Positions 13,839 through 62,633 of a stretch of DNA of 64,000 nt are shown one piece after another (the first letter of the stretch is position 1; each line of letters begins with the position of its first letter). The position numbers and the translations under genes were made by a program. Under the pieces are notes generated by a model that saw only the letters and a program-made list of their open reading frames with translations, was not told the DNA's origin and did not search any database. The stretch is from positions 248,001 to 312,000 of the forward strand of contig CALYLX010000036.1 in the NCBI GenBank assembly GCA_944990035.1, written 5' to 3'. This DNA is from Clitopilus passeckerianus (Eukaryota > Basidiomycota > Agaricomycetes > Agaricales > Entolomataceae).

Positions 13839-14436
13839 AAAGGTCAAGCTGTTCAGAAGGCCCGCTCATTGTTAGCGCAGGCCCACCCCACGACAACACA
13901 GCAGAAGCACGCAACAGGCCGATTGCCGTTGCGGCTACCACTCAGTCACCACGGTCGTACACAGGGCAGACCACCCGCCACGAAATACCACTCTAGTAGA
14001 AGGAACCAACAACGTCTACAAGTTCACCAACGGAAACTACTGCGGTTTTAATCACAACAATAACCGCTGGTGCTACGCCTCTCTCTCCCTTGGCAAATTC
14101 ACATTCACCACCGTTGCCGTTGAAAACAGACACTTCCACGCTCTAGACTTCCCTACCCCTGAACGACCTCATAAGACCCCTGCTATTGTCCGAGCTCAAC
14201 GAGAACACGACATTGAAGTAGACGAGGAGGAACAGCGACGCTTCGCACCATTACCCACAGCAATATCCAGGAACCCATCACTAGTCCCATCTACCAGCGC
14301 TTCTGTCTTGCCCGAAGAGGAAGAAGAAGAACACCAAGTACAACAACAGCTAGAGGAGAGCCCCACAGCTGAGCCAGAGGAGCGCCCCAGTGCAGAAACA
14401 ATTGAACCAGAGACCGACTTCGATTTCGACTACGAA

Positions 14437-18300: not shown

Positions 18301-19182
18301 TCGCTTTGGACTCCCCGACAAAGGAATTTCTGACAGAGGACCTCAATTCGCCTCTAAAGTTTTCCAAGAAATGGGACGACTTCTTGGAATCAAGCTCAAC
18401 ATGAGCACCGCCTACCACCCACAAACCGATGGTGCGACAGAAAGGATCAATCAGGAGATTGATGCCTATCTCCGCATCTTCTGTGCACAGAACCCCGAAT
18501 CCTGGTCCAAATGGATTACCACTCTAGAATTCTCCTACAACAGCCGAACACACTCTGTCACCAAACGAACCCCATTCTACCTAATGATGGGATACGAACC
18601 ACCTGCACTCCCATCAATTGCTCCCACTAGCAAAATTCCCGCAGTTGACAAACGGATCAAGGAACTTCTGCTAGCACGCGATGAAGCAAATGCTGCACAT
18701 GCACTTGCTGCGCAACGCATGGCAGAGAAGATCACACGACAGTTCACCCCATTCAAAGTCGGAGAAAAGGTGTGGTTAGAAGCCACAAATCTCAATCAAG
18801 GAAACATCTCCAAGAAACTAGCACCCAAACGAGAAGGACCCTTCAAGATACTCGAGGTAAAGGACACCTGACCTATAAACTCGACCTGCCAAGACGATGG
18901 AAGATCCACCCGGTGATTCACGCATCACTTCTCACCCGTTACATCTCCACCAAAGCGCATGGACCCAGCTTCTCTAAACCGCCACCTGACGAAATCGACG
19001 GAATAGAAGAATACGAAATAGAAGCAATTGTGGCCCATCAGAAACAAGGCAAAGGGCGACACAGATACCTCGTAAAATGGAAGGGATGGCCATCAGCGGA
19101 CAACGAATGGATGCCCGAGTCGGAACTGCGGAACGCCAAGGAAATACTCACCGAGTATAAAAAGAGGAAGAAACTCACCTGA
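15361..19182 (+). pseudogene. pol of element B: protease, RT, RNase H, integrase, chromodomain (multiple frameshifts)
   Basis: Protease LIDSGAQGSFI lies near 15515, RT with YMDD (16854-16865) and RNase H VESDASKHATGAVL near 17295. The integrase HHCC region (GHPGQFG..CAMCQQM) is near 17955-18065, and the catalytic core is interrupted by a frameshift near 18225. The C-terminus is a chromodomain (EYEIEAIVAHQ, YLVKWKGWPSADNEWMPESEL) ending at 19182. Compared with copy A this copy lacks two bases near 16020 and one base in each of three homopolymer runs (near 17513, 18225 and 18857), so the frame is broken four times. The chromodomain marks it as a chromovirus integrase that would target chromatin. 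Confidence 0.85.
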
Positions 19183-19220
19183 CACCACATAGCAAACCCA
19201 CTCACATCCACTATATAACA

Positions 19221-20087
19221 ATGTCTCAAAATGCCTCTTCCTACGACCGCACCATCATCCGCAACACCTTCAAATCCGATACCGCTATTACGGCGCTCCG
19301 TACGCATACTGCCTGGAGCAGCGACGACAACCCTCTCACCGCTGTGGGAGAACAAGGAACCCTTTACCAAAACCGACGAACCGAAACTCGCAACGAAGTG
19401 GCTCGTCTGCGCCACCAATTTGCGAAAACCACTGACGATCTTGATCAACTTTTGGACAAAGTTGATCGAGAAACGGAGGAGACCCTCACAGACCTCTTCT
19501 TTGCTATTGGAGGAACAGCTTTCCTCGACGAATTCTTCCCCGAACGACAAAACTGGTTCAACAACCCAGAGGAGACAGACTTCGAAACCCTTGCCTCCAA
19601 TCCCTGGGGGCCTGAGGAAAGTCAAGAAGAGGAAGTCACGATCCTCACTGCACGTCAAGTTTGCGGAACCCTACGAGCATTTCCTCCCGTCACCAATTTA
19701 CACACCACCGCAAAAATAAAACATAACCCCTTCGTCAAAGAAGAACAGAACGACAACAAGGAAAACATCAACCCCAATGGCAAACCCTCCAACGCCATAC
19801 CTCTCCGCATTCGAAAGCCCACCAGAGTCCGACTCACCAACGCTGGTGAACCTTCCCCCTCGACAATATCGTCCCAGAAGGCGCCGCGCACTGGATACCT
19901 TGCCAACAGACCACCACCACCCAGATGGTTCAGATGCTACATTTGTGGAGGCAGACACCGACAGTGTCATTGCTTTTTTGTGTGTCGTCTGTGCCATCGT
20001 CGTGGCCCAGGCCATTACCCGGTTAGCTGCCCACAACGCTACCACAAGGGCATAGACCGTCACTTCTGGGGTAAAGGAAGGAATTGA
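19221..20087 (+). CDS. additional ORF of element B downstream of pol, zinc-knuckle-like C-terminus
   Basis: A 288-residue intact ORF starts ATG (MSQNASSYDRTIIRNTF) 38 bases after the pol stop and ends shortly before the 3' LTR. The N-terminal half is charged with coiled-coil potential (VARLRHQFAKTTDDLDQLLDKV). The middle is basic and probably disordered. The end has a dense Cys/His cluster (CYICGGRHRQCHC, CRLCHRRGPGHYPVSC). Its position is that of env in retroviruses, but it has no signal peptide or membrane segment and is not an envelope protein. I know no named family. It could be a nucleic-acid-binding accessory protein. It is the only undisrupted ORF in element B. Copy A has a broken version at 25447. 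Confidence 0.7.
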   Translation: MSQNASSYDRTIIRNTFKSDTAITALRTHTAWSSDDNPLTAVGEQGTLYQNRRTETRNEVARLRHQFAKTTDDLDQLLDKVDRETEETLTDLFFAIGGTAFLDEFFPERQNWFNNPEETDFETLASNPWGPEESQEEEVTILTARQVCGTLRAFPPVTNLHTTAKIKHNPFVKEEQNDNKENINPNGKPSNAIPLRIRKPTRVRLTNAGEPSPSTISSQKAPRTGYLANRPPPPRWFRCYICGGRHRQCHCFFVCRLCHRRGPGHYPVSCPQRYHKGIDRHFWGKGRN

Positions 20088-20117
20088 AGTCAGACTTCAA
20101 CGATAGCGAGAGGGTAA

Positions 20118-20601
20118 TGTTATGATTTTGCTTACATGTTTCTCCTTACATACCCCGGCCCGCTTACCTATGCACGATTACTCACATATGCTGCGCATCA
20201 CTGCGCATTTTTCATCTTTTCCATGCTTACTCCGCATCTCTCACGATCGTGAGAGACTTATACCTTATCTGACTCTTTCTGACTCGCATTGAGTCATACT
20301 GACTCATGTACTTACTCATCATGCTGCGCATGACTCATTACTTGCTCAGCATGCTGCGCATGTGCTATATTTAGAACTACTAGATAGGTATATAAACCTG
20401 TACCATTTGGTCAAGGCTCCTCAGCTTGACCTAGGCAATCTACCTAACTGCTTAGTTCTCTACTTCGCCTTTAAGTCCCTTGCTTCGTCAATCTCACCAG
20501 GTCGTCAGTACAGCCGCAGCTGCTGACAAATCTCTGTCTTTGTTTATCAAAGACATTGAGCGTAAACAGTATTACCTAAGTTGTTAGGCTCTGCCTTAAC
20601 A
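20118..20601 (+). repeat. 3' LTR of element B
   Basis: 484 bp, matching the 5' LTR of B including the 20-bp segment. It differs by one T in a homopolymer (four instead of five). It is followed by the GCGCC duplication at 20602-20606. Confidence 0.9.
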
Positions 20602-20656
20602 GCGCCCCAGTGCAGAAACAATTGAACCAGAGACCGACTTCGATTTCGACTACGAA

Positions 20657-21585
20657 ATGTCACAAGACAACAACAACAAGAAGGACATTGGAGCCAAACC
20701 CCAAACGTTCTCCGGAGACCGATCCAAGACCAGAAAGTTCATTCAGGAACTTGAAGACTACCTCATCCTAAACAACCTCAACCAACTCGAAGATGACAAG
20801 AAGATTCGCATCGCCCTATCCTTCCTCAAAGAAGGAACTGCAGCAGCATGGGGATTAGAATTTCACGATAAATATTCAGCAGCTGAAAGGAAAGCCACCT
20901 ACGCTGAATTTATCAACCAATTCAAAGAAGCCTTTTCCCCTACCGACGACAAAGCTGCCGCACTCCTCCAACTCAAAGCCTTACGACAGGATGGGACAGC
21001 TGACGAATTTGTCACCGTCTTCAAGAATATTCTTGCACGAACTGATCTCAGCGGTGACACTGCAAAGATTGAGATCTTCATGGAAGGACTTACCCCCAAA
21101 CTCCGAGAGAAAATTCTCTTTTCCGATTCCCTCCTACCACATTCGACGATTGGGTCAAGAAAGCCGTCCAGTTTGACAACAACTGGCGACGTGCCAAGAC
21201 AATCATGGGACATACCCGTATCATCAAGACATCTGATATGGTCAAAGGTGCTTACAAAACACCTACTGGAGCCCGAGACCCAATGGCTATGGATGTTGAT
21301 CGTTTCACCACTGATCCACCCAAACGCCGCCTCACCCAGGAGGAAAGAGAACATCACAAGAAGAACAACTTGTGCTACTATTGCTCCAAGAAAGGTCACA
21401 CGATCCAACAATGTCTTCAAAGGAAGAATTTTGGAAGAACCTACCCTAGCAACAACGACAGCCGATTCCACAAGAAACCTGAGAAGTGAGCCGAGTTGAT
21501 CAAATATGTCAGAGCAGTCCTAGCTGACATGCCCCAAGAAGAAGCCGCTGAATTCTACACTGAAGCAGAGGCTGAGGGTTTTTAA
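20657..21585 (+). pseudogene. gag of element A, 3' part (frameshift and premature stop)
   Basis: This continues the gag region separated from its LTR by element B. The capsid region (KAAALLQLKALRQDGTADEF, NILARTDLSGDTAK) is in frame here, unlike in B. A base missing near 21131 shifts the frame before the FDDWVKKAVQFDNNW region, and a TGA occurs at 21487-21489 after the CCHC knuckle where B has GGA. The slippery heptamer and TAA at the end are conserved. Confidence 0.75.
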
Positions 21586-24500
21586 AGAGGAAGACTGCAA
21601 AGCCGACGTCAGTACTTCCTCGCCCGATTGATATTTCCAGTGTACTTGTAGCTACTGATTTTTATGCTGAATCTATGCGTATCCCAATCTCTCTACAAGA
21701 CCCCCTAGATGGAAATACAACAATCGCCGGCACAAAAGCTCTCATTGACTCTGGAGCGCAAGGGTCATTTATCGACTCCGTCTTCGCCAAGACACATCAC
21801 CTCCCACTACTCCCACTCCGACAACCGATTACAGCACGAAACGTTGATGGCACCCTGAACAAACAAGGAACTATTACCCACTTTACCTGGGTTATTGCCA
21901 AGATAGGGACAGCCATCATCAAGGAAAGATGTTTTGTCACTGGACTCGGGAAAGACCACCTGATTTTTGGATTACCCTGGCTAAAACGGGTAGATCCAAT
22001 CATATCGTGGAGCGACGGCACACTCGAAATCGACGAATCACGCATTACCCAACGACTGTCGCAAACATTGATGCGAGCAGTAGACATCAAGCGGATGAGA
22101 GCCATCCGAGAACAACTACTAGAGGAAAACACGCCACCTACCCCAGCACCTGATTGTTCCGAAGAGAATCCCGGAAAATCAGAAGGACTTAGCGACTATT
22201 TCCGAATAGTCGAAGACGGAGAAGAGATCAATGAAGATTTTCTCATCGCATACTGCCAGAACGAACCGGCAGTCGGAATATTCACCAAGGAGGAACCCCC
22301 ACTTACGCAGGAACACACAAAGGATTACCTTGTGTACGGGCCAATCAGGCCAACTACCACAATACGACAGACGGTGGTAACACACCATCCAGCAACCAGA
22401 CACCACACACAGCAGGTGTGGATACGTGCGAAAACATCAATTTCGCAAGCTCTGGAACATAAACGAGAAGATAAGGAACCAAAGAAATCCCTTGACGAAA
22501 TCATCCCCGACTATCTTCAAGACTACAGAAAAGTCTTTGAGAAAGCAGCATCTGAACGATTCCCACCAAGCCGACCCTGGGATCACGCCATAGATCTGAA
22601 GACAGATTTCGTGCCAAAAGACTGCAAGGTCTATCCGCTCAGCCCCTTAGAGCAAGAAAAACTCGACGAGTTTCTCAAGGAAAATCTAGCCAAAGGATAC
22701 ATCCGAGAATCCAACTCCCCACAAGCATCTCCGTTCTTCTTTGTTGCAAAGAAAGACTCGGAAGCCCTGAGACCATGTCAGGATTACCGACGACTCAACG
22801 AAGGAACAATACCTAACGCTTACCCCTTACCGCTGGCTAGCGAACTCATCGATAAACTCAAAGGAGCAACTGTCTTCACCAAACTCGACATTCGATGGGG
22901 ATATCACAACATCCGCATCAAAGATGGTGACCAATGGAAAGCAGCGTTCAAGACCAACCGAGGGTTATTTGAACCAATGGTGATGTTCTTTGGACTAATG
23001 AACTCACCCGGTACCTTCCAAGCAATGATGAACCACCTTTTCCGAGACATGATAGACGAAGGATGGGTCATCATCTACATGGACGACATCCTCATCTTCT
23101 CCAACGATCCAGAAAAACACCGAGAACGCACACGCAGAGTCTTACAAAGACTACAAAACAACGATCTCTACCTCAAAGCAGAGAAATGCCAATTTGACAC
23201 CACAAGAGTGGAATACCTTGGGTTCATCATTGAACCAAACAAGATCTCCATGGACCCTGTCAAACTTGCAGGGATGCGCGACTGGCCTACGCCAACTACA
23301 GTAAAGGAAGTCCGATCATTCCTAGGATTCGGAAACTTTTACCGCAGGTTCATCGGAAAATATGCGGAAATTGCCAAACCGCTGAACGAACTCACCAAGA
23401 AAGACAAGAAATGGGAATGGACCAATGAATGTCACGAAGCTTTCACTACCCTGAAAGACAAATTCCTGGAAGCGCCTGTGTTGCTGATGCCTGATCCCAC
23501 GAAGCCATTTGTGGTGGAAAGCGACGCCTCAAAACATGCAACAGGAGCAGTCCTACAACAACGTGACGCCAACGGATCATGGCACCCATGTGGTTTCATA
23601 TCTAAATCGTTCTCGGAAACAGAACGGAACTATGAAATCTACGACCGAGAACTTCTAGGCATTATCCGCGCATTAGAAACCTGGCGACACTACTTCCATG
23701 GATCCCAACATTCAGTTGTGATTCTATCCGATCACAAAAACCTCACATACTTCCGAGAAGCCCGGAAGTTGAACCGACGACAAGCAAGATGGAATTTGAT
23801 GCTATCCCAGTTTAACATCAAACTTGTACACACCCCTGGTGCAAAGATGATACAATCTGACGCACTATCTCGACGACCAGACCACATCCCAGGTGAAGAC
23901 ACCGACAACGAAGACATCATTCTCCTCCCCGACAAGCTCTTCCTTCGCTCAATTGACATTGAACTAAAGGACGAAATTGTACACAAGATGGTCAATGACA
24001 AACTGATTGTTGACGCCATTCGCACCGCCAAAGAAGACGGACCCCACCAATCCGATCAAACCTGGAAGACTGGAAATTTGACGATGGCATCTTGTACTAC
24101 AAGGACAAGTGTGTGGTACCAGATGACGAAGACCTCCGAAGGAAGATAGTCCAACGTTATCACGATCTACCCAGCGCAGGACACCCTGGACAATTTGGGA
24201 CACTGGAAAAAGTCCGGAAGGACTACTGGTGGCCAGGGATGTCAGTGTTCATCAAGAACTTTGTGCAGGGCTGTGCAATGTGCCAGCAAATGAAAATCAA
24301 TCGCCACCCCACCGCTCCACCATTAATGCCCATCAAATCCGAAACCACTAGGCCATTTTCGCTAGTGACGTACGATTTTCACACGGATCTCCCAGAGAGT
24401 GATGGTTTCGATAGCATTATGGCCGTGGTCGACCATGGAGCTACGAAGGGGGCAATTTTCATCCCTTGCACAAAGAAAATCGACGCCACAGGAACTGCAA

Positions 24501-25408
24501 ACGCCTACATTGACAACGTTTACCGTCGCTTTGGACTTCCCGACAAAGGAATTTCAGACAGAGGACCTCAATTCGCCTCTAAAGTTTTCCAAGAAATGGG
24601 ACGACTCCTTGGAATCAAGCTCAACATGAGCACCGCCTACCACCCACAAACCGATGGTGCGACAGAAAGGATCAATCAGGAGATTGATGCCTATCTCCGC
24701 ATCTTCTGTGCACAGAACCCCGAATCCTGGTCCAAATGGATTACCACTCTAGAATTCTCCTACAACAGCCGAACACACTCTGTCACCAAACGAACCCCAT
24801 TCTACCTAATGATGGGATACGAACCACCTGCACTCCCATCAGTTGCTCCCACTAGCAAAATTCCCGCAGTTGACAAACGGATCAAGGAACTTCTGCTAGC
24901 ACGCGATGAAGCAAATGCTGCACATGCACTTGCTGCGCAACGCATGGCAGAGAAGATCACACGACAGTTCACCCCATTCAAAGTCGGAGAAAAGGTGTGG
25001 TTAGAAGCCACAAATCTCAATCAAGGAAACATCTCCAAGAAACTAGCACCCAAACGAGAAGGACCCTTCAAGATACTTGAGGTAAAAGGACACCTGACCT
25101 ATAAACTCGACCTGCCAAGACGATGGAAGATCCACCCGGTGATTCACGCGTCACTTCTCACCCGTTACATCTCCACCAAAGCGCATGGACCCAGCTTCTC
25201 TAAACCGCCACCTGACGAAATCGACGGAATAGAAGAATACGAAATAGAAGCAATTGTGGCCCATCAGAAACAAGGCAAAGGGCGACACAGATACCTCGTA
25301 AAATGGAAGGGATGGCCATCAGCGGACAACGAATGGATGCCCGAGTCGGAACTGCGGAACGCCAAGAAAATACTCACCGAGTATAAAAAGAGGAAGAAAC
25401 TCACCTGA
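21586..25408 (+). pseudogene. pol of element A: protease to chromodomain, one frameshift
   Basis: Open from the slippery site through protease, RT (YMDD), RNase H and the start of integrase (21675-24149 when counted from the first Met). One C is missing from a run near 24046 relative to copy B. The frame resumes at 24092-25408 with the zinc-binding region, the catalytic core (VTYDFHTDLPESDGF, DRGPQFASKVF, ATERINQEID) and the chromodomain. This single break is the only damage seen in pol of A, so it is far better preserved than B. Confidence 0.85.
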
Positions 25409-25446
25409 CACCACATAGCAAACCCACTCACATCCACTATATAACA

Positions 25447-26336
25447 ATGTCTCAAAATGCCTCTTCCTACGACCGCACCATCATCCGCAACACCTTCAAA
25501 TCCGATACCGCTATTACGGCGCTCCGTACGCATACTGCCTGGAGCAGCAACGACAACCCTCTCACCGCTGTGGGAGAACAAGGAACCCTCTACCAAAACC
25601 GACGAACCGAAACTCGCAACGAAGTGGCTCGCCTGCGCCACCAATTTGCGAAAACCACTGACGATCTTGATCAACTTTTGGACAAAGTTGATCGAGAAAC
25701 GGAGGAGACCCTCACAGACCTCTTCTTTGCTATTGGAGGAACAGCTTTCCTCGACGAATTCTTCCCGAACGACAAAACTGGTTCAACAACCCAGAGGAGA
25801 CAGACTTGAAACCCTTGCCTCCAATCCCTGGGGGCCTGAGGAAAGTCAAGAAGAGGAAGTCACAATCCTCACTGCACGTCAAGTTTGCGGAACCCTACGA
25901 GCATTTCCTCCCGTCACCAATTTACACACCGCCGCAAAATAAAACATAACCCTTCGTCAAAAAGAACAGAACGACAACAAGGAAAACATCAATCCCAATG
26001 GCAAACCCTCCAACGCCATACCTCTCCGCATTCGAAAGCCCACCAGAGTCCGACTCACCAACGCTGGTGAACCTTCCCTCGACAGTATCGTCCCAGAAGG
26101 CGCCGCGCACCGATACCTTGCCAACAGACCACCACCACCCAGATGGTTCAGATGCTACATTTGTGGAGGCAGACACCGACAGTGTCATTGCTTTCGTTTT
26201 GTGTGTCGTCTGTGCCATCATCGTGGCCCAGGCCATTACCCGGTTAGCTGCCCACAACGCTACCACAAGGGCATAGACCGTCACTTCTGGGGTAAAGGAA
26301 GGAATTGAAGTCAGGAGACTTCAACGATAGCGAGAG
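25447..26336 (+). pseudogene. broken copy of the downstream ORF in element A
   Basis: Same start as the intact ORF in B (MSQNASSYDRTI) but with single-base losses near 25765 and 25807 and further small indels downstream. The zinc-knuckle-like end is still recognisable in the DNA. Confidence 0.75.
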
Positions 26337-35796: not shown

Positions 35797-36681
35797 TTAC
35801 TTCACACCTGCCGATACCGTAAAGTTCCCGTGAACCCAGATGTCTGAATCATGAATCGCGACCACATTTGCTGCAGTTCCATGAGTTTGGTTCTCCCCGT
35901 GGTTTTCGTGGACAGTTTTTCCTGCTATTAGTATTAGGTGATATAAACTTAGAGTGGAATAACTTCACGCACTCTTCTTGCTTCGCCTCCGTTGCCATAA
36001 AAACCAGGAAAACCCACCAAAGAGAAGTACGACTCCGGAAATGACGCATCCGAGGATGATATCTCTTGTTTGCGTACTAACGCCTGATGGAGAGGGCCCT
36101 GATGAGTTCGTCGCTATTGGTGTCGAGGAGCTAGGTGATATCGATCCCGTTGCGGTTTGGAGGAGGTTGGTAAAGTTTCCCGAACAAATCTGGGCATCCA
36201 CCGAGTTAGCACACTCGACAGAATGTCCATCATTCACGCAGAGCCAGAGCTGCTGGCTCGACCTCTGACAAGTTAATGCTCTTCCCGTCGTTACGTTGTG
36301 ACTGACTGATGACTGTGCTGTTGTGCATCCTCCGGAGTCACAACATGGGGCATTGAAGCCGGCGGATTGGCTACTGGAATGTGATAGAAGAGAGTCGTTG
36401 CATGGAGGCGCATGCGATTTGGTCCAGTCTATGGCGTAGCACTTTTCTCCTACGAGGCACGCGTGTTGGTGACCGGTAGAGCCAATACAGAAGGCGAACT
36501 GTTCGGGGTTGCAGTCTGGGATTGTCGACTCGCCCTGGTATGTTTGGGCGGTGCAGAAGTAGTAAAATGGGTCAAGGAGGCGGTCATTGACGACGGAGTC
36601 GACGAGCTGAAGCTCATCCTCTGTTAGGCCTTGCTCTTTCGTGCAGTTCTGACTGAAATTACTCGTAGGGCTCGTGGCCAT
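35797..36681 (-). CDS. Cys-rich single-pass membrane protein P4
   Basis: Exons 36681-35973 and 35924-35797 give 278 residues. The Cys-rich outer part (FCIGSTGHQHACLVGEKC, CCDSGGC, LWLCVNDGHSVEC, QICSGNF) matches P2 and P3 closely. One membrane segment (IILGCVISGVVLLFGGFSWFL) and QRRRSKK follow. The second exon is placed by the conserved phase-1 donor (GTGCGT) and a CTAATAG acceptor. Its tail carries HDSDIWVHGNFT, a weak version of the shared motif. If that intron is not used, the protein stops six residues after the membrane anchor. In-frame codons before the ATG (SFIFTL) look like the end of a signal peptide after an acceptor, so the annotated start may be internal. Confidence 0.7.
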
Positions 36682-37103
36682 GAGGGTGAAGATGAAGGAT
36701 CCTTAGCTGCCTAGGGAAATTAGGCCGAAGAACAATCGGTAACATGCCAACGTTTGTCATTGTTCTCAGTATGCTGACCGTGATCACGGGCCGTCAGATC
36801 TCCGAAGTGACAGCAGTGAAGATGCCAATAAGAAAGGGAAGGACTGTTGTTGTTCTTTTCTTGTCATCAACAGTTATCACCGACACGCAATACACCTATA
36901 TATCGCGATTGACGCTCAAGCAACGCTGACATGTGGCACATTGGACTAAATTTCAAGTTATCCCACTGAAGGAGTGTTATCTCGAGAGGTTCCGGCAAAT
37001 ATTCGACAGATACATGAAGGAAAGGCTGATAAGAGAGGAAGATGGGTCCCAGGCGTCCCTAAGCAACTGAAAGTAGCTGGTGTGTGGGTCCTCGCCGGTT
37101 TCC

Positions 37104-38083
37104 TCAGGGAGAAGTGTGATCTAGCTGAGGGCGTTAATACTGATCGGAGGGCAAAGAGAGAAGCCGCACAATGATTGACTGTGGTGATATGATGTCCCGC
37201 AACGTTCGTAAAACTACCTCCGTAGATCTCACTTGAGTTTGCAGGCTGGCTCCCGCTGGTGTTAGAAGCGAGATAGTCCGTCGAGGGCGCATACGCAGGA
37301 GGGTCAGCCAAATCTTTTCCATTGAGTGAGTACTCCATTGGGGTAGCTAGATAGTCGCGTCAATAGGGAGTTGAAGGGGAATTCAGAGGGTCTACCTTGA
37401 TTACGATTACGCCGAACAATCCATCGGGCGAAACCAACCAGCAAGGATACTCCAACGACGACAGAGACAGAGATGATAGCGTTTCTAGTAGTGTCGCTTA
37501 ATCCCGTGCCGTTATTGTCGGTAGTTGAGGTCTTTCCGGATGGTGATAGTGTAGAAGTCGAGGACGTAGGAGTCGTAAGGTTCCCCGAGCAGATCGTCTT
37601 GTTCAAGGGATTCACGCATTCCGCAGATACGCCATCGTTTATGCAAAGCCACAATTGCCGGCTAGGGTCACTGCATTGCAGAATCGAGCTCGAGGCAAAT
37701 TGAGACCCCTTATCAGCCTGAGTACAGAAGTCGGAATTGCAGCATGGGGTGTTGAGTCCGGGCTGCTGGACGTTGGCGTACTGAATGATGGCTTTGGAGC
37801 AGGAGGAAGCGCGACTGCTACTCCAGTCGATAGCGTAGCATTTGTTTGCGATAAGACATGCGTGTTGCTGGTTATGGCCACCGATGCAGAAGGTAAGATA
37901 TGAGGGATAGCAATCAGGGATCTTTGTCGCGTCTGGGTAGGTGGTCGACAAGCACTTATAGACAAATGGGCTGTTCGCGAGGTTGGAGAAAGTGTTCTTC
38001 GTCAGCTGGAGGTCATTGTACGTGGACTGGACGCAGCTCGCTTGAAAGAAAGGTGCTCCACTACTACTTGAGTTGGAGGTCAT
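37104..38083 (-). CDS. Cys-rich single-pass membrane protein P3
   Basis: Exons 38083-37396, 37346-37170 and 37120-37104 give 293 residues. The outer Cys pattern (FCIGGHNQQHACLIANKCYAIDW, CCNSDFC, LWLCINDGVSAEC, TICSGNL) is followed by a Ser/Thr stalk, one membrane segment (AIISVSVVVGVSLLVGFARWIV) and RRNRN. The tail has PPAYAP and then EIYGGSFTNVAGHHITTVNH, ending at a phase-1 intron. The last exon encodes YHTSP and the stop, almost identical to the last exons of P1 (YHTH) and P2 (YHPSQSS). The upstream in-frame codons (FPIPLFALDA) again suggest a signal peptide whose first part may be in an earlier exon. Tandem with P4 and adjacent to NLR 2. Confidence 0.75.
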
Positions 38084-39097: not shown

Positions 39098-42000
39098 ATG
39101 GCAGAAATCGACAAGAGCATTCTTCAAGAATATACGTGGGATGCATATAGCTTTACCCCTGCGCTATTCAAACCGCAAGTCGAAGGATGTCTACTGACGC
39201 AGGTCATCATTCGGTCTAACAACACGGGTATCGACAAAGCTTATTCTCAGTGGGACAAATGCACCCAGCTCCTGGCAACCGACGATAAATTCCGAAAAAT
39301 TCTCTTAGATTGCTGGAAATTGGGGTCATTTGATCGCGTTCGGGATCATAGTGAGTTCTCCATCTTCGCGTTCAGAAAGACGCTGATCCAGGACCCACAA
39401 TCCACAGAAGCAATACAGGCCCCGCAGGGTTAGCCGATCCCGCAGATGAAGCGCCACAATGACTGACTCCATTCTAGACGACTCTGATACTAAGCAAAGT
39501 ACCACAGTCATCCATAATGGATCCACTTTCACCGAAGTTCATGGCGATTCCTATACAAGTAAGACCTGTATTTTATCTGTATAGTTCCCCTGTAACTCAA
39601 TATTTTCAGTCAATTATGAAACCAGTGAGTCGAATTCACTGCAGATATTCGGATTGACTAATAACTCTCAAAGATTGGAAAAGCGATTGGATCATGAAAT
39701 GGCTCTGCGAAGTCGATTACGGAGCCATGCAGAGAGTCACCTACTCGAAACGATCCGAGGGTACAGGCGACTGGTTTCTCCAATCATTAGCTCTGGAAAC
39801 TTGGATCACGAGTACGGAGAAACGAATTTTATGGTGTACTGGCATGCGTGAGTCTCCTTCGATCATACATCCAATTCGTTGACTCACCCAATGTCTTAAA
39901 GCTGGAGTAGGCAAGACGGTTCTCGCGTAAGCCAACAACGACGCCCAAACTTTTCGCGAGGCTCACCTTAAGCTTAAATGCAGGTCACTGACTGTCCAAT
40001 ATCTTGAGCACCTACGTCATGGCCCAGTATGTTTCGTGTACCTCAACTACAAACGACGGGCGACACAATCTCTGTCTCATATATTCGCTGCTATCTTGAG
40101 ACAGCTTTACGAACGTTATGACCCCGCTTATGGGCGTATTAAAGCTTTCTGGAAGGCGCATGCTGTGCATATCGAACCCAGCCTCTCGGACATGAAAAAG
40201 GAGGTTCACTCTATCGCCGAAACTGCCAAATCTATCTATCTGGTTCTTGACGGGCTGGATGAATACCTCGAACACTATTCCGATGAGTCAATCGTGCATC
40301 TCCGAGATGCTCTCATGTCTATCCCTAACCTCAAGGTTATGGTCACGTCGAGGATTATTGGTGGTATGAAGAAGATATTCAGCGTGAACCATGTCGTCCA
40401 TCAGGAGATTTATACTTCGGATAACGACATGAGGACGTACTTAAAAGGGCGCATCTCGACCGAAGTGTCGGGGAGATTTCGTGAAGAATTTCGAGACCAG
40501 GTTCTTGAAAACATCACGAAGGTGGCTAAACAGAGGTATGTCGATAATTTCGTCATCACTTGAAGCTTTCACCTAACAAGCACATCTCAGATTCCTGCTC
40601 GCTAAACTCTACATGGACCTTATTACAACTCGCCTCACGGCTGGTGAACTTCGCGACACACTGGCATCCCTATCCGAAGAAGTCGATCATGTCTATCGGC
40701 AGGCTGTGGATAGAATAAACGAGCAAGCCGAACGTCAAAGAGAGCTCGCTTTCAAGATTCTCCTGTGGGTTACCTGCACCCACCGTGCTCTGAAGATCAA
40801 AGAACTGCAGCATGCCCTTGCCGCCGCACCAAACCGCAATGACGTTCTTAACTACATATACCCTGAAGAACTATTGACCTCGGTTTGCGCTGGATTGATC
40901 ATAGTGAATGAGACCGAGGGCGTAGTTCAGTTCGTGCGTGAGTTGTGACCCTTGAGCCCGAGATCCTGCCTACACTCAATCTTTTTACAGACCACACCGC
41001 GCAGGAGTTCTTCGAATCCGCTCGCGACGAGTATTTCCGCGACGCCGACCTGACGATTTCGACTACTTGTGCCCACTATCTCACCATTGAGCCGTATATG
41101 TACGATGGCGAAGTGTCTCGGGTGTTCACTCTACTCGATAACCTCCCCCTTTTCCGTTATATATCGGAGCACCTCGGAAAGCACCTAAAGAGCTGTAGTG
41201 CAAACCCGATTGCTCTGCTAGGTGGGAGCATGACCCCAAGAGCGAGGGTACTCCTCGCAATCTGTTGTGCCGAGGGTCATTTCCCCTTGTATGATTGGAG
41301 ACGTTTACGGTGGCAGGACGTTCACTTGGCGGCAGCAATGGACCTTGTTCCAATCCTCAAAAATATCATCACAGAGCGGCTGGATTGGAACGCAAGAGAG
41401 CGTCAAACTGGGTTTACACCTCTGGCATGCGCATTACGAACCGGCGCGATGAACGTGATACGCTACCTCCTTGATCATCACGGTATCGATGCGAACGAAT
41501 GCGACAGCCACGGCGACACTCTGCTTGCTTTTGCTATCCGTTATGGGCGTACAAGCGTCGCTGACATCCTGCTGGAGAGTAAAGGGATCAATATTAACTC
41601 GAAGAGTAATATTGGACGAACTCCTCTACACTTCGCAGTCATCTACGACCGGATGGATATGTTTATGAAACTCATTTCAAGCCCTTTAGTCGACGTCAAT
41701 CCAGAGGATAAGAAAGGCGAAACTCCCCTATTCCACGCCGTTCGGTATAGGCAAGAAGAGATGGCCAAAATCCTTCTCCAAGATCCAAGGGTTATCTATA
41801 ACTCCGTGAACTCTGACGGGCGTACCCCTCTGGCAATTGCCATTGCAGAGGACGTACTTCCAATGGTGAAGATTCTATTGCAACGAGACTCTTTCACGGC
41901 GGAGTTTAGGGACAACCGAGGCCGGACGTATCTTTCCTGGGGATCGGAGCAAGGAATGTTGGAAATTGTTCTCGCTATCCTTGCCATACCAGACTATCCC

Positions 42001-43056
42001 GTCGACTCTCCCGACAAATACGGTCGTACTCCTCTATCCTACGCGGCGTCTGATGGTCATACTGAGGTCGTCAATGTTCTGTTGAGGACATCAGTAGTCA
42101 ATCCGAACACGAAGGACTGGGAGGGCTGTACACCGCTCTACAACGCCTGTAACCGACAGTGTAGAAAGGTTGTTGAAGTCCTGGTAGAAGCGGGTAGCAT
42201 CGATGTAGACTTGGCAAACGACAAAGGTCGTACCCCACTCTCGATCGCCGCGGAGCATGGAAATACCCCCATAGTAGAACACCTTCTACGAGCTGGAGCA
42301 AATCCAAACACCCAGGACGTCGACGGCCGAACCCCGTTGGCACATGCAGCCCACTCGTATCACACCTCCGTAGTCAAGCTTCTCCTGAGCCGAGGAGCCT
42401 CAGTCGATACCAGGGATAACCAGGGTTGTACGCCGCTCGGTTATGCCACCTTTCTCCTTAGTCAGGACAACAACAACGTGGAAACGATGAAAGCCCTACT
42501 TCTCGCAGGAGCCGATATCAACGCGCAAGACAACGATGGAAGAACAGCACTCATACGAGCCGTATGTTATCACAGCGATGAGGCAGTCAAGTTTCTGATA
42601 CATCAAGGAGCAAATGTTGATATAGGAGACAATTACGGGAGGCCAGCAATATCGCACGCCGCTGCATGGTACCACTCTGACAGAATGTTGAAGGTACTTC
42701 TGAGGCATACGCAGGAGGTTAACCCTCTTGACCAAGGAGGTCAAACACCTCTTATGATTGCTTCCAGCTCCGGCAGCAAAGATTCTGTCAGAACTCTGAT
42801 CGCTGCCGGAGCGAACGTAGATGCCAGAGATTCTTGCGGTCGAACGGCTCTTTCCTACGCAGTTGCGCACACCGAGGACTCTGAATCAGAGTATTATGGC
42901 CCTCGTGGAGTCGCCAAGATATTGCTGGAGGCGAACGCTTCTGTGAATCTGGCTGACAACGAGGGAAGAACTCCCCTGGACTACGCCAGTATAGCACCAA
43001 CAATCGAGCTACTCAGGAAGTTCGGAGCTGCTCATGGCGATGGTTATAGTGACTAA
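39098..43056 (+). CDS. NACHT-ankyrin NLR-like (STAND) protein, NLR 2
   Basis: Eight exons: 39098-39428, 39478-39558, 39610-39624, 39674-39847, 39902-39926, 39984-40535, 40591-40937, 40991-43056, giving 1196 residues. Exons 3 to 7 have the same lengths (15, 174, 25, 552, 347) as exons 2 to 6 of NLR 1, so the two are paralogues. An N-terminal domain (FRKILLDCWKLGSFDRVR) is shared with NLR 1. The motif NGSTFTEVHGDSYT is followed by the mini-exon INYET, then EGTGDWFL, Walker A GMPGVGKT (199-206), Walker B LVLDGLDEY near 296-304 and FVHHTAQEFFE. About sixteen ankyrin repeats fill 640-1180. The repeat number exceeds that of NLR 1, as expected for fast-evolving recognition domains. The gene appears intact and lies head-to-head with P3. 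Confidence 0.92.
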
Positions 43057-54840: not shown

Positions 54841-56435
54841 CTACTTGATATATAGAGTCGTCGGTTCTTTGAGTTTGTCGGGAAGGACTAGTTTGATATG
54901 CTCTTTGGTTGGAATCCTCGTCCAGCGACCGTCCTTGTAACACAGCATAATAGCTAGGGTATTTGGCCTAGCGCTTACACCGTTCAAAATGGCAAGGCCA
55001 AGAAAATCGTACCGGCCCAGATCCGACGATTCCACATCAACAATAATCTGTCCCAGCTCCTGAACCTCCAGATCCAACCGACCTGCTTCCTGCGTAGAGT
55101 AAACATACTCAACAGCGTAAATCGGAAGCTGGATACGGAGTCCACGATTGGTGAGCATGTGAGGTTCATCGAGAAAACCTTCTCGAGACTCATCGATACC
55201 CTCAAAGGGGCGAGCAGAGAAGCAACGTAAACTCGCTGCGAGCATGCTGTTGTGAGATGACGGCTGGCCCAGCCAGGCGAATAACGATGCGTCGGGGCTA
55301 CGTTGGAGAATCTCGACTTGCAATCGATAGAATGCCATGGCACCCTCTCCGTAGGCGATGGAAAGCGGGATGTCGAGTAGTCCAATGAGACAGTAGGCGA
55401 TGTCTTCAGTCCGAGTCGTTCTCCGCTTCGATGCCCATACGAGGGCCTCTCTGGCATGAGTGATGCCAGGAGAAAAGTCGAGGAGATGGTTGGCAGAGAT
55501 CCCTGTGATTTCTGAGATAGTTTTCCAGAGTGGAACGTCGAGAATGTTGTCGCCAACTTTGTCGTTATCAGCGGACTCTGATCGCTGGGGCGTTATGCGA
55601 AGCCACGATGCTCCAAAGAATACGAGTTTTTTGGGCGCCAGGAGTTCCTGGAGCGTCCAGCCCCTGGTAAACCATGGGTCCTCTTTCAGGGATGACAGCC
55701 CCATGGTGTCGGCGAGGTGTACGATGCAAACCTTGGACCGGCGATACCAGTTAAACATCGATCGGATCGACTCCTCTAGCTCCGCGCTCCTGCTCTTGTC
55801 GATGCAGCCAGTGTCAAACCAGACGAAATTGCAGCCTTGCTGTCGTGCAGCACTGCAAAATTCAACGAGTTTAACAAGGTCCGGGCAACCGTCACGTTGT
55901 TTGTTTGAGATCCTGCCGCAGAACCCCTTCATTGCTTCGAGCAATCCGAAGTCCTTCACCTTGTGCTCGGGCCGCCTCGTAGCACAGCTCCCCCACACTT
56001 GAAGGATTTCTCTGCTGTTCCGCACCGTGTCTCTTTCTCCAGTGCTTCCCGGTTGCTGAATATTTTCGGCACCAAGCTGCTCAAACTTCTGCACGTCGTC
56101 GAAAGTCAGTTCGCCAGTTGAGAGCCATCGATGAGAGAATATTGCGTAAGCGGTCTGTTTAATGATCCAAACCTTGGTACGATTGGAAATGACCTCGAAC
56201 GACGGCAGGACATTCATGGAGACCTGTGTTTCGATAAATTTGTCGATGTCAGGCTGCAAGATTTCCTTGAGGGCGTTCCTGCGCAATAGTTTCATATCTC
56301 TAAGGTGCAGAAGATAGATTGGGACTTCGTTGAAGATATACTCGTCGATGATGTTGTTCATATCTTGAGTGCCAAAATATCATCGACCAGGGCCAGACAC
56401 CGGAGAGCGGTGATAGACTTGCCTCGGGAGCTCAT
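54841..56435 (-). CDS. HET-domain (heterokaryon incompatibility) protein
   Basis: A long exon (from 56361) of 506 codons carries the HET domain: AYAIFSHRW, WFDTGCIDKSRSAELEESIR, SMFNWYRRSKVCIVHLAD, WFTRGWTLQELLAPKKLVFF and TEDIAYCLIGLLDIPLSIAY. HET proteins trigger cell death when incompatible strains fuse and are often paired with NLRs. Upstream, from ATG 56435, an in-family N-terminus (MSSRGKSITALRCLALVDD) is in a frame one base off that of the main ORF. The shift falls near CTCAAGATATG (about 56362-56372), and one extra base there would join them. Either a base is missing in the assembly or translation starts at the Met at 56361. An acceptor-like CTAAG at 56439 connects this exon to the micro-exon chain upstream. 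Lowest-risk start: 56361. Confidence 0.85.
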
Positions 56436-56493
56436 GGTCTTAGATATGCAAACTTAGCAGAAGCGTTTCGCCAGAGCTAAAGGTAGGACCTAC

Positions 56494-59400
56494 TTCCTGG
56501 AGAGGACGGGGTGCATACACGGTCAGGAATCTACTGGATACTTTCGACAGATTCACTTACGGACTGAAGGCGCGAGAATGGGAGGATGTGGTGAGCAATC
56601 TTGTGCATATGTTCAACGGATTACCTTACTCTCTGAAGACACGAGAGCAGGCAGACGTGGTCAGTATTCCTGTGCATCCTATCAACAGATTCACTCACAA
56701 TCTGAAGACGCGAGAACGGGCAGACATCGTCAGCATTTCAGGGTATAGGTTTGGCAGATTGGCTTACACGCTGAAGACACGAGAGAGGGCAGACATGGTC
56801 AGCAATCGCAAATGCCGTGCATTCTTTCGACAGGTTCACTTACTTCCTTGAGACGCACAAGCGGGCAGACGTCGTCAGCGATCCTGTGGATACTTTCAAC
56901 AATTCACGTACTGGCTGAAGATGCGAGAGCAAGCAGACGTGGTCAGCAATCGTCCGCATAATTTTGACAGATTCGCTTACACACTGAAGCCGCGAGAGCG
57001 TTCAGACGTGGTCAGCATTCCTCTATATTCCTTCGATAGATTCACTTACTGGCTGAGGGCACGAGGGCGGGCAGAGATGGTCAGCAATCCTGCGCATGCT
57101 TTCAACAGATTCACTTACGCACTGAAGATGCGAGAGCGGGCAGAAATGGTCAGCATTCCTGTGGATACGTTCGAGAGATTCACTTACACGCTGAAGACAC
57201 GAGATCAGGCAAACGTAGTCAGCATTGCTGTGCATACTATCACCAGATTCACTCACGATCTGAAGCCGCGAGAGCGGGCAGACGTGGTCATCAATCCAGT
57301 GCATACTGGCAACAAATTCACTTACTCCCTGAAGCCGCGAGAGCGAACAGACGTGGTTGGCATTCGTGCGCGTACTTTCAATAGATACACTTACTGGCTG
57401 AAGACGCGGAAGCGGTGACCCGTGGTCAGCAATCCTCTGCATACCTTCGACAGATTGACTTACGAGCTAAAGACGCGAGAGCGGGTAGACATGGTCAGAA
57501 ATGATCCGCATACCTTCGCCAGATTCGCTTACACACTGAACAGGCAGGAGCAGGCAGATGTTGTCAGCAATCCTGTCCATATTTTTAACAGATTCACTTA
57601 CAAGCTGGAGACACAAGGGCAGTTATAGTCAGCATTCCTGTGCATACTGCTGATATATTGACTTACATGCTGAAGACGCAAGAAAGGGCACACCTGGTCA
57701 GCAATACTGCGCATGCTTTCAATAGATTCACTTACTCCCTAAAGATGCCAGAGTGGGCAGAGGTGGTCAGCAACCCTGTGCATACCTTCAACAAATTTAC
57801 TGACAATCTGATGACGCAAGAGTGGGCAGACATGGTCAACATTCTTATGCATAGTTTCAACGGATTCACTTACTGGCTAAAGGCGCGAGAGCGGGCAGAA
57901 GTGGTCGGCATTCTTGTGCGTACATTCAACGGATTCACTCACGGACTGGGGACGCGAGACCGGGTGGACATGGTCAGCAAGCCTCTACATACCTTCGGGA
58001 GAATCACTTACTGGCTGAGAGAGCAAGAGCGGGCAGATGTGGTCAACAGTGCTGTGTAAAGTGTTAATCAATTTACTTACTGGCTGGAGACGCGAGAGCA
58101 GGCAGACATAGTCAGCAATCGTGCCCATACTGTTGACAGATTCACTTACTCGCTGAAGGGCGGAGAGGAGGTAGACGTGGTCAACAATCCTGTGCATACT
58201 TGCAAGGGATTCACTTACTCCCTGAAGATGTGAGAACGAGGAGAGGTGTTCAGCAATCCAGTTCAAACTTTTGACTGATTCACCTACTCCCTAAAAGCAC
58301 GAGAGCAGGCAGACATGGTCAGCAAATGTCTACATACTTTCGACAGATTCACTTACTGGCTGAAAACACAATAGCAAGACGAGATGGTCAGCAATCCTAT
58401 GCATACAGTGAACGGATTCACTTACTCCCTGAAGACGACAGAGTGGGCAGACATGGTCAAGAATCATGTGCATAGTTTTGACAGAATCACGTACTGGCTG
58501 AAGACTTGGTCAGCATTCATCCGCAAACTTTCAACAGATTGACGTACTGGCTGAAGACGCGAGAGCAGGCACACATGCTCAGCAAGCATGTGCATAATTA
58601 AAACAGAGTCACTTACTGGCTGAAGATGCGAGAGCGGGCAAGCATGGTGATGAATCCTGTATATATTTTTTGACGGAATCACTTACTCGCTAATGATGCG
58701 AGAGCAGGCAGATGTGTTCAGCATTCCTGTTCATACTATGAACAGATCGACCTACGATCTGAAGACAAGTAAGCGGGTAGACTTGGTCAGCAAGCAGGTA
58801 CGTAATCAAAACAGATTCACTTACTCCCTGAAGACACGAGGGCGGGTAGACGTGGTCAGCATTTCTGTGCATACCTTCGCCAGATTCACTTACGATCTGA
58901 AGTTAGGAGAGCGGGCACATGTGGTCAGCATTCCTGTGCATATTTCTATAGATTCACTTACTCCCTGGAAACACAAGAGCGGGCAAAAGTAGTCAGTATC
59001 CTTATGCACACTTTCGACGCGTTCACGTACTTTCTGAAGACCCAAGAGCCGGGAAGCGTGGTCAGGAATCCTCCACATGCTTTTGACAGATTCACTCACG
59101 GACTGAAGACGAGAGAGCGGGCAGACGAGTCAGGAATCCTCTACATACCCTTGACAGGTTCACTTACGTACTGAAGACACGAGAACAGGAAGGCATGCTC
59201 AGCATTCTTATGCACACTTTTGACGGATTCACTTACTGGCTGAAGACGGACAAGCCGGCAGACATGGTCAGCTTTCCCCTGCATACCTGCAACAGATTCA
59301 CTTACGACCTAAGAACACGAAAGCAGGCAGACATTGTCACTAGTCATCTACACCTTCGACAGACGGACTTACTCCCTGAAATCGCAACGGTGGGAAGACT

Positions 59401-61535
59401 TGGTCAGCAATCCTGTGTAGACTTTTGACAGATTCACTTACTGGCTGTAGACGAAATAAAAGGCAGACATGGTAAGCCTTCCTGTGCATACTTTTGACTG
59501 ATTCACGCACTAGCTGAAGACACGAAAGTGGGCAGACTTGGTCAGCCTTCCTGGCATACTTTCAACAGAATCACTTACTGGCTGAAGGCGCGAGGGCGGT
59601 AGAAGTAGTCAGCAATCCTCTACATTCCTTTGACAGATTCACTTACATACTGAAGCCGCGAAAACGGGGGCACATGGTCAGCAATCAAGTGCATACATTC
59701 AACAGATTCACTTACTTCCTAAAATTAAACGGCCCGGCAGACGTGGTCAGAATTCAAGTGCATGCCTTCTATAGATTCACTTACAGACTGAAGATGTAGG
59801 AGCGGGCAAATGTGGTCAGCGATCCTGTGCATACTTTCTACAGATTTACTTACGGACTGAAGATGTCAGCGCAGCCAGATGTGGTCAGCAATCCTGTGCA
59901 TACTTTTGACATATTTACTCACAAACTGAAGGCAAAAGAGCGGGCGGATATGGTCAGCATTTTTGTGCATACCTTCAACTGATTCACTTACGGTCTGAGG
60001 ACGCAAGAGCAGGCGGCCATGGTCAGCAATCCTCTACATACCTTCGACAGGTTCACTTACTCCCTGAAATCGCAACGGTGGGCAGACGCGGTCAGCAGTC
60101 TTGTGCATACCTTTGACTGATTCACTTACCGGCTACCACAGGAGCAGGCAGACATGGTCAGCATTCCAGTACATATCCTCAACACATTTACTCACGACCT
60201 GAAAATGCAAGAGCAGGATGACCTGGTCAGCATTCCTGTGCTTATATTCGACAGATTCACTTACTTCCTGAAGTCCGAGAGCAGGCAGATGTCGTCAGGA
60301 ATCCTCTACATACTTTTGACGGGCTCACTTACAAGCTGAAGATGCGAGAGGGCAGGTGAGGTCAGCAATCATGTGCATACTTTCAACACATTCACTTACG
60401 ACCTGAAGCCCCGACGGCAGGCAGACATGGTCAGCCTTCCTGTGCATACCCTCAGCTGAGGCACTTACGTACTAAAGACGCGACGGCGATCAGCAATCCT
60501 GTGCATATTTTCGACCCATTAACTCACTTTCTGACGAAGTGAGATTGGCCAGCCGTGATCAGTAACCTCGTGCATACTGTCAACGGATTCACTTACTCCC
60601 TGAAGAGACGAGAGCAGAAAGACGTGGTGAGCAATCATCTGCATACTTTGAACAGATTGACTTACTGGCTGAAGACGCAAGAGTGGGGAGAGATGGTCAG
60701 CAATCTTGTGCGTCCTTTTGACAGATTTACCTACTCCCTGACGCCGCGAGAGCGGGCAGATGTGGTTAGCGTTCCTGTGCATACTTTTGATTGATCCACT
60801 TACGACCTGAAGATGCAAGTGCGGGTAAGCGTGGTCAGTAATCGTGTGCATACTTTCAACACCTTAACTTACTCGCTGAGGGGGCCGGGGAAACGTTGTC
60901 GGCAATTCTGTTCATACTTTTGGTAGAATCACTTACTCGCTAAAGACGCGAAACCGGGCAGACGTGTTCAGGAATCTTCTACATACCTACGACAGATTCA
61001 CTCACATACTGAAAACACAAGGGTGGGCAGACATTGTCAGCAATCAAGTGCATTCCTTTGAGAGATTCACTTACAACCTGAAAACGCGAGGGCGGGCGGA
61101 TGCGGTCAGCGTTCCTGTGCATACCTCCGACGGATTCACCTACTTCCTGAACACGCGGGTGCGGGTACGGGTGGTCAGTAATCCTGTGCATACTCTCGGT
61201 AGATTCACGTACTCGCTGAAGGTGCGAGAATGACCACACGTGGTCAGCAACGTTCTGCATACTTTCGACGGATTCAATTACCCCCTTAAAACGCCAGGCC
61301 CGCATAACCTGTGTTATTCAATGACACTGTAAACAGCCCGTGGCACGTACCAACTGGCACGATTGAGATCATGGGCAACTTAATCTTCATAGACAGCAAG
61401 AAACACACCTCCTAATCGATTTTTCAGAATGTACACGAGTAAAACCCTTCTCAATTGAAATTAGCCCTTACAGACTAATAGATATCCCCCAATCAGTATA
61501 TTTTCCGTATCCATCTATTAAATATGACTCACTTT
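56494..61535 (-). CDS. putative gene of about 75 one-codon micro-exons, leading towards the HET gene
   Basis: If the junctions of the array are spliced, 70 triplets join, preceded by AAA (61535-61533), TCT (61474-61472), GAG (61411-61409) and TTG (61353-61351) and followed by GAA (56496-56494). The upstream introns are 55-66 nt and not obvious copies of the repeat. Of the three reading phases one has a stop after 14 codons; the other two are open throughout. One (triplets as codons) is Gly/Pro/Arg-rich and stays in frame into the ATG exon at 56435 of the HET gene. The other is rich in Asp, Glu, His, Gln and Ser, has about 70 percent G or C at third positions, and would stop at a TGA overlapping that ATG. 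A possible first exon begins at the ATG at 61656 and ends at GTGGGC (61608) or GTATTA (61600). No expression evidence is available. Confidence 0.5.
56541..61284 (-). repeat. 69-bp tandem array, about 70 units, each an intron-like sequence plus a 3-nt exon
   Basis: Unit period 69 bp. On the minus strand each unit starts with a donor (GTAAGT, GTGAGT, GTACGT, GTAGGT, GTAAGC and a few others). It contains a branch-like GCTGACC about 26-28 bases before the acceptor in most units, and ends in CTTCAG, CTTTAG, CTCCAG or similar. Exactly three bases then precede the next donor. I read 70 such triplets between 61284 and 56561. GT and AG are present at every junction read, while most other positions vary. 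Unit length varies (for example introns of about 49 nt at 58498 and 56 nt at 60472), but the triplet is always three bases. Among the triplets CCA, GGA, CGA and GTC are frequent. None is a stop codon. Confidence 0.9.
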
Positions 61536-61600: not shown

Positions 61601-61800
61601 ATGCCCACTTTCAAAATCAACCGCACCAAAGGATGCATATGGTTAGTACCGTTCATCAAGCTAGGGCTTGAATTGGATCCTCACGTTCTGGTATAAACAA
61701 CCGTGTGCTTGTCATAAGAAGGTAGTTGTTGCTGCCGATCAGGATTACATACAAACTGTGAAAGGAGTCATATGGTCCACGGTCCACGGTCCATTGAAAT
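61601..61800 (-). other. further micro-exon-like junctions upstream of the array
   Basis: TTT (61755-61753) lies between CACAG and GTATGT, and AAC (61687-61685) lies between ACCAG and GTGAGG, separated by a 65-nt intron-like stretch. TGGGCAT (61607-61601) lies between GAAAG and GTATTA, with a CTAAC branch-like site before it. These continue the AG-triplet-GT pattern beyond the repeats, but the first exon of the gene is unresolved. Confidence 0.4.
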
Positions 61801-62633
61801 ATGCGATCAGACCACCTACTTGTGTTTTCTTCCAATGGAGCGTCGATGAGACAGTCGCTATGGGTGACAGGTTTGGACGACCTACCCAGGCTGGAGGTTG
61901 TTCGTTTCCAGACTGCACCGATATTTTAGCACAGGATTACTAGAAACGAGTTGAATGTGTGTACCATGGCAGAATGAGCAGAGATATAGGCTTGGCTAGA
62001 GTGAGAGAGGAGAAGGTAGAGTGAAAGGGATAAGAGGGGATCCGAGCAGAATCTCGACGACGTGACGGTCGTATAAGGTCCCCTAGTGTTATCGATGATC
62101 ATGCAAGAGATCTATTAAACATCACGCGCGGAGGATCGACGATCCTCCAGTCGTGTAATCAGGCAGGAGGCAGATGGGCGTCAATCTGTCAAGTCTGTCC
62201 AAAACGTCGTTTGGTAATTGCCTACAGTCATGTTCAAGCCTCAGCCACGAGGTTTGATGATCCTTGCTTTCCTATGGCGTGGCTCACAATGCAGCTCAGG
62301 TCGAGCTCTTACAGGCATTCGGGGGTAAATGTGAGGCACCAATGAGACCAAAAGGTTACTAGCTACGTTCGCAAAGCTCCTGTAGCATTTCAATCAATCG
62401 ATGGTCACAGATGGATAGGATGAATGAACGTTTGGAGCTGGCGAGTCATGTGTCTTGGCATGTGTTGTGGCGTCCGGTCCTCAGAGTTCCCCAGTTGCGC
62501 TTTAATCTTGTGAATCCAACACAGCACCGAGTCCGGTTCTTTACCGAGGTACGTGGTCCATCATCAGGACAAATATCTACATAGGCGGCCGAGCAACATT
62601 GGTGGAGACGCTGGTATACCAAGGTTCAATACA
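61801..62633. other. intergenic, hairpin at 62130-62148
   Basis: No gene supported. GGAGGATCG A CGATCCTCC at 62130-62148 is a perfect inverted repeat of nine-base arms. Confidence 0.45.

Follow-up and report, generated by a model that had tools for sequence, protein, structure and literature searches.

Within a 64 000-nucleotide stretch of the Clitopilus passeckerianus genome (contig CALYLX010000036.1, positions 248 001 to 312 000, referred to here as the window), a 69 bp tandem array runs along the minus strand from 56513 to 61286 (Tandem Repeats Finder rows), and each of its units resembles an intron followed by three bases. Our analysis indicates that this array lies directly upstream of an exon encoding a HET domain and would very probably be spliced with it into one message as 78 one-codon exons, producing an N-terminal segment in which alleles are likely to vary one residue at a time. 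The array itself is real, reads like coding sequence and belongs to a gene family; its splicing, and a role in recognition, are predictions drawn from the sequence.

Repeat structure and splice signals

A first-pass annotation of this DNA had described about 70 intron-like units in which GT and AG were always kept. To avoid circularity, the array was aligned to the Tandem Repeats Finder consensus by a wraparound method that carries no splice rule. Even so, the alignment confirms the description: there are 71 units on the minus strand at 56.5-61.3 kb, with GT present in 71 of 71 and AG likewise in 71 of 71 (pi of 0 at both). The CTGAC branch-like site that had been pointed out is also borne out, the branch A (unit column 38) being A in 69 of 69 aligned bases with one deletion. 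The count of about 70 is right for the periodic part, but falls short of the total since one-codon exons begin earlier, at 61755, to give 78.

The three bases between acceptor and donor had been called the most variable positions of the unit, and they are indeed the top three columns (pi of 0.74, 0.72 and 0.62), the mean for the other 66 columns being 0.281. The column-by-column count that the annotation had proposed as a check therefore leaves GT and AG far less variable than their neighbours. It also departs from what is expected of a minisatellite, in which all columns should drift alike. The acceptor-to-donor spacing is three bases in each of the 71 units, and in none does AG abut GT directly to leave an exon of zero length. 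The alignment contains 60 deleted and 18 inserted bases, none of them inside the triplet. Deletions of 17 and 10 bases, confined to the intron, had been reported; the confinement and the 10 hold, whereas the larger deletion measures 16, the two short units being 53 and 59 bp long. Several other units are off by 1 to 7 bases. The list of donor forms in that annotation was incomplete, and to it we add GTAATT, GTAAGG, GTCAGT, GTATGT and GTGAGG together with one GC donor.

The arrangement is far from what chance would produce. The longest strict chain of acceptor-NNN-donor steps is 64 in the array as against 1 on each strand of window positions 1-56400, and simulated chains reached no more than 2 when the window was modelled 100 times by a Markov process, and no more than 3 in 500 simulations with the composition of the array itself.

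Predicted gene model

The window locus is designated W. Its gene model is a prediction from sequence, in which the conserved short exons were located by aligning W with three loci of the same genome, X, Y and Z. The predicted features are as follows.

61965..61967, minus strand: last codon of exon 1, ATG, followed by donor GTACAC; ATG/GT is also found here in Y, C97a and C157b, and the X codon is ACG
61886..61912, minus strand: exon 2, 27 nt (SGNEQPPAW), from the inter-locus alignment
61820..61828, minus strand: 9 nt exon (KTQ); K/E-T-Q in W, X, Y and Z
61753..61755, minus strand: one-codon exon TTT (F), the first of 78; TTT in W, X, Y and Z
61685..61687, minus strand: one-codon exon AAC (N); an asparagine codon, AAT or AAC, at all four loci
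61605..61607, minus strand: one-codon exon TGG (W), followed by a GC donor; the same codon in X, Y and Z
61351..61535, minus strand: four one-codon exons, AAA, TCT, GAG and TTG, with their introns, from the joined gene model
56494..61284, minus strand: periodic part, 71 one-codon exons from GGG (61282-61284) to GAA (56494-56496), introns mostly 66 nt
56423..56438, minus strand: penultimate exon, 16 nt, with GC donor GCAAGT; an in-frame 16 nt exon occurs in 16 of 17 genes
54841..56363, minus strand: terminal exon with the HET domain; the stop of the joined frame is at 54841
55705..55863, minus strand: match to Pfam HET (PF06985), residues 167-219 of the open reading frame, coordinates calculated from the residue numbers

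The 78 predicted 3 nt exons extend from 61755 to 56494, seven before the periodic array and 71 within it, and the introns of this chain are 50-77 nt long (median 66). When joined, the predicted exons give 603 codons with no stop, running from the ATG across the array and on into the HET exon. A predicted tryptic peptide, YVLEVPGTFSSEYPLPGVPYSK, would span 22 exons.

The HET match scores 39.9 bits (curated cut-off 22.5; E value 6.6e-10). A Pfam search of the large exon gives HET only, with no NACHT or ankyrin match, and an NCBIfam search gave no match. The HET domain has been related to the TIR fold (PMC10197012); with respect to this question we obtained no profile match and no convincing fold match among solved structures.

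A family of related loci

Of 24 related HET loci in the genome, 21 are preceded by a series of one-codon exons, and some of these arrays have introns that do not repeat one another. When exon length was left free between 1 and 18 nt, 3 nt exons were chosen in 78 of 80 cases in W, 44 of 45 in X, 54 of 55 in Y, 65 of 67 in C157b, 34 of 34 in C97a, 23 of 23 in L034 and 11 of 14 in L031; two genes on contig C155 gave 81 of 84 and 71 of 72. In W the same search also returned a 5 nt piece that is the end of exon 2. Across the family the donors are strong, with GTAAGT in 266 of 554.

The connection to the HET exon is equally constrained. A 16 nt exon links the array to it in phase in 16 of 17 genes, and control lengths of 8-15 and 17-25 nt gave no in-frame solution in any of the 17. 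Seven of the HET open frames have no methionine ahead of the conserved exon start, which implies that translation should enter from upstream.

The sister arrays follow the splice-unit rule more loosely than the window array. The triplet columns rank 1, 2 and 4 in variability in X, where four bases are deleted in the first triplet column and four are inserted after the triplet, and 1, 2 and 7 in Y.

These loci bear on the idea that the array is a non-coding minisatellite inside a single large intron or leader sequence that is removed in its entirety, with a splice-like look that goes back to copying of an ancestral unit. In keeping with this idea, tandem repeats make up X, Y and the window array (intron identity in X is 0.88). 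Nevertheless, the pattern is also kept where there is no clear sequence repetition, in C101, L034 and C97a; the introns of C101 are unrelated, with an identity of 0.54 compared with 0.53 after shuffling. The absence of a start of their own in the seven HET frames, and the conservation of codons between alleles described below, also argue against it. We have rejected this explanation on the grounds of the non-repeat arrays and the allelic codons, and consider it very improbable.

A second possibility, to which we attach even less weight, is that the units are introner-like mobile introns that were inserted repeatedly. X and Y do contain near-identical introns. Against this, a 301 bp piece of the array matches 55 places, all 55 of which lie in four arrays on contigs C36 and C34 (the search skips very common words and scores the best candidates only). 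A single-unit pattern gave 162 matches and, among about 100 of these that were listed, two fall outside those arrays, on C97 and C157, both at HET genes. Dispersal in unrelated genes was not found in these searches, and head-to-tail units at a fixed spacing suit duplication better than insertion; mobile introners were rejected on this distribution and order.

Several observations on the family stand apart from these questions. L029, L038, C155_269 and C155_282 have a 53 bp unit with 50 nt introns, the consensus of which is unlike that of the 69 bp unit, and this suggests that the arrays would have been homogenised separately. Two HET relatives of 38% identity, L043 (C113) and L044 (C13), have no array within 1.5 kb upstream; they are possibly an array-less sister lineage, useful for dating the origin of the arrays. 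The region at 94.5-108.8 kb of C34 is syntenic to W but unusually diverged, with pieces at 65-87% identity and the HET exon at 80% over 675 nt, in contrast to X and Y, where the HET exon is 95.2% identical. The array of Z is irregular and its HET match falls in two separate pieces. The divergence between W and Z may be that of old alleles.

Sequence evidence for coding triplets

Stops were counted in 17 genes or alleles; being second alleles or overlapping loci, L025, L045, L042, L035 and C98 had been excluded in advance, and X and Y were both kept. In phase 0 there is no stop in 554 triplets, whereas 2000 within-column shuffles gave a mean of 34.2 and a minimum of 19. Reading in the other two phases yields 17 and 28 stops in 537, and another reading phase was rejected on this ground. 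The window array taken by itself has no stop in 78 triplets, with 4.6 expected and a probability of 0.001 of finding none.

Partner contigs, with HET exon identities of 93-97%, behave as two haplotypes and alleles can therefore be compared. Four allele pairs (L025/C97a, L026/L045, L034/L035 and C101/C98) together provide 102 codons with four changes, all synonymous and none a replacement. The intron bodies of these pairs diverge by 5.9-9.3%, a rate at which about 23 exon changes would be expected. It is this record of synonymous-only change, with the lack of stops, that a non-coding minisatellite fails to accommodate.

Other comparisons have a different character. X and Y carry 40 and 50 periodic units with differing codons despite their closely similar HET exons. 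Within X, unit pairs whose 66 intron bases show no more than two differences are nevertheless unlike, on average, at 1.99 of the three triplet bases (99 pairs, of which 15 are triplet-identical). Taken together, the allele pairs and the X and Y data imply that some arrays are constant codon by codon and that others change their codons faster than their introns. Any tendency of triplets to travel with their own introns is weak at most (permutation P of 0.005-0.35 in eight tests), being clearest in C157b (P of 0.005 and 0.024) and on one side of Y (0.008).

A number of points weigh against our interpretation. Firstly, in a fifth allele pair, L032/L036, 12 of 36 exon bases differ and the 12 codons carry two synonymous and four replacement changes, a pattern that would fit diversification rather than purifying selection. 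Secondly, the window array has no close allele, and its codons are tested by splice signals, frame and stops only. Thirdly, its peptide is an outlier: proline and glycine make up 35% and charged residues 22%, where none of the 11 other peptides has more than 12% of the former or less than 36% of the latter (charged residues are 36-78% in 11 of the 12 array peptides compared). Fourthly, C101 and C98 require exons of 6, 9 and 15 nt, and under looser settings 8 of 75 and 6 of 64 of their exons have a length that is not divisible by three; in C101 one 1 nt exon was judged spurious by eye and a few exon boundaries were re-chosen by eye. L030 has no 16 nt exon under the rules used, the joined N-terminus of C101 matched no protein in the database, and the putative recognition role is read from the HET domain.

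The peptide composition raises the question of whether the family is coding but the window array is a decaying or relaxed copy, in which a proline- and glycine-rich peptide is no longer under selection. The diverged introns of the array would agree with such decay, as would a syntenic partner, Z, with an irregular array and a divided HET match. A relaxed copy would not, however, be expected to retain intact GT and AG in all units, triplets free of indels, no stops and an open joined frame of 603 codons, and we regard this explanation as unlikely. The earlier proposal that selection on splicing maintains a gene with one codon per exon is supported, at the level of sequence, by the invariant splice sites, the lack of stops, the frame that stays open into the HET exon and the synonymous-only change in four of five allele pairs.

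Proposed mechanism and significance

We propose that introns of about 50-66 nt would be recognised by intron definition and removed one after another, with each 3 nt exon in turn forming the end of the exon built so far when the following splicing step begins. A sequential order is suggested because both introns that flank a 3 nt exon can hardly be handled at once; simultaneous handling has been argued against for a 1 nt exon of Arabidopsis (PMC4674806). Unequal exchange or slippage of the intron-plus-codon unit could then add or remove exactly one codon with the frame intact, since a duplicated unit consists of one intron and one codon and produces no frameshift. In self/non-self recognition, the segment might determine the specificity of a HET cell-death module or the threshold at which it acts.

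The frame would also survive the loss of any one-codon exon by skipping, and isoform variation is possible. In a stronger form of this idea, compatible with splicing of the whole array, transcripts include only some of the one-codon exons and give rise to a large set of in-frame isoforms. In support of this we note that all triplets are stop-free in phase 0, such that any skip leaves the frame open, and that alternative splicing of 3 bp exons is cited for Tuber melanosporum (PMC4986451, PMC9815663, PMC3689799, PMC10197012). The conservation of codons in four allele pairs suggests instead that most of them are used, and we hold the stronger form to be possible rather than probable.

Returning to the one-codon exon gene, we tentatively suggest a broader view that we would not yet favour. 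Each residue ahead of the HET death domain would be its own exon, and the gain, loss or swap of a unit, or the skipping of an exon, would alter the receptor by one amino acid and always leave the frame intact. With introns homogenised and codons kept diverse, the arrays might generate recognition specificities at the level of the genome in mushroom-type fungi, with an origin separate from that of the truffle NLRs.

Should transcripts confirm the prediction, single-codon exons would follow one another by the dozen in these genes (81 of 84 in one chain), which would provide a hard test for models of tiny-exon recognition. For somatic incompatibility in basidiomycetes, the mechanisms of which have been called completely unknown (PMC8229728), the loci offer concrete candidates. 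They also represent a route for diversifying coding DNA codon by codon without frameshifts, and a HET protein segment whose length and sequence could probably change in steps of one residue. Such arrays are missed by ordinary annotation. Of 4418 HET relatives 120 were listed, and none of these was recognised by eye as having an array-like N-terminal segment, and the unmatched N-terminus of C101 is a further example. A six-frame search of the genome itself found the HET-exon part only, and searches for DNA of relatives in other genome and viral contig collections gave none that was confirmed.

Other features of the window

Two retrotransposon copies were identified by eye from the list of open reading frames at 14308-25942, the first of which is split into more frames; the frame at 21675-24149 matches protease, reverse transcriptase and RNase H. 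Tandem repeats of 30 bp occur at 12504, 13537, 20300 and 26504. Four similar predicted proteins, at 8494-11041 and 35965-38083 (minus strand), share a cysteine pattern and a likely membrane segment as judged by eye, and the two of them that were tested gave no Pfam match.

Comparison with known systems

The first-pass annotation knew of no described fungal gene of this kind. For fungi as a whole that does not hold: codon-sized microexons in the NACHT-ankyrin (nank) genes of Tuber melanosporum (Iotti et al., 2012) are cited in four papers (PMC4986451, PMC9815663, PMC3689799, PMC10197012). A 2024 paper states that functional microexons had not been described in filamentous fungi (PMC11121469). 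Our search of the literature covered mostly open-access papers, and among those listed none was seen to describe arrays of one-codon exons in genes that are HET-only or from basidiomycetes. As far as we have found, the novelty lies in a family of HET-only genes, in an array placed ahead of the HET domain and in evidence at the level of alleles; codon-sized microexons themselves are not wholly new.

As those papers describe them, the nank genes share with the present family tens or dozens of 3 bp exons (78 are predicted here), membership of an expanded fungal family tied to non-self recognition and in-frame modular variation. They differ in being ascomycete NLR genes with microexons in the C-terminal recognition domain and reported alternative splicing, whereas here the genes are HET-only, the array precedes the HET domain and splicing is predicted. 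Tuber is an ascomycete; the nearest named relatives of the HET genes, among the matches listed (120 of 4418), are mushroom-forming fungi, the closest being Flammula alnicola at 55%; a methylthioadenosine phosphorylase search gave few named matches, Amanita polypyramis being one of them. The case suggests more than one origin of codon-sized exons among the recognition genes of fungi. The window also contains two NPHP3_N (NACHT-like) genes with many ankyrin repeats, at 2610-5419 (minus strand) and 40036-43056 (plus strand), which come near to the truffle microexon domain pair; they sit where the longest acceptor-NNN-donor chain is 1.

Other systems offer partial parallels. The Cryptococcus gene CNN00420 is reported to have gained introns through expansion of an intron-containing repeat (PMC2395259) and is a precedent for a basidiomycete gene that gains introns by duplicating an intron-bearing repeat, although two introns were gained there and up to 81 one-codon units stand in one chain here. 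The ratchet points of recursive splicing, as described in PMC8605326, likewise place an acceptor close before a donor and allow stepwise removal, which for our array is a proposal; they lie side by side inside long introns, whereas here each step would leave a codon. The 1 nt exon of Arabidopsis APC11 indicates that an ultra-short exon can be spliced, and sequential removal is proposed for it (PMC4674806), but it is one such exon and the present series is long and uninterrupted. Finally, the hypervariable repeats of fungal NLRs, according to PMC9815663, are near-identical with a few highly variable positions and undergo unequal crossing over. Their unit is a unit of protein; in the window array intron takes up 66 of the 69 bases, leaving a single codon as the variable part.

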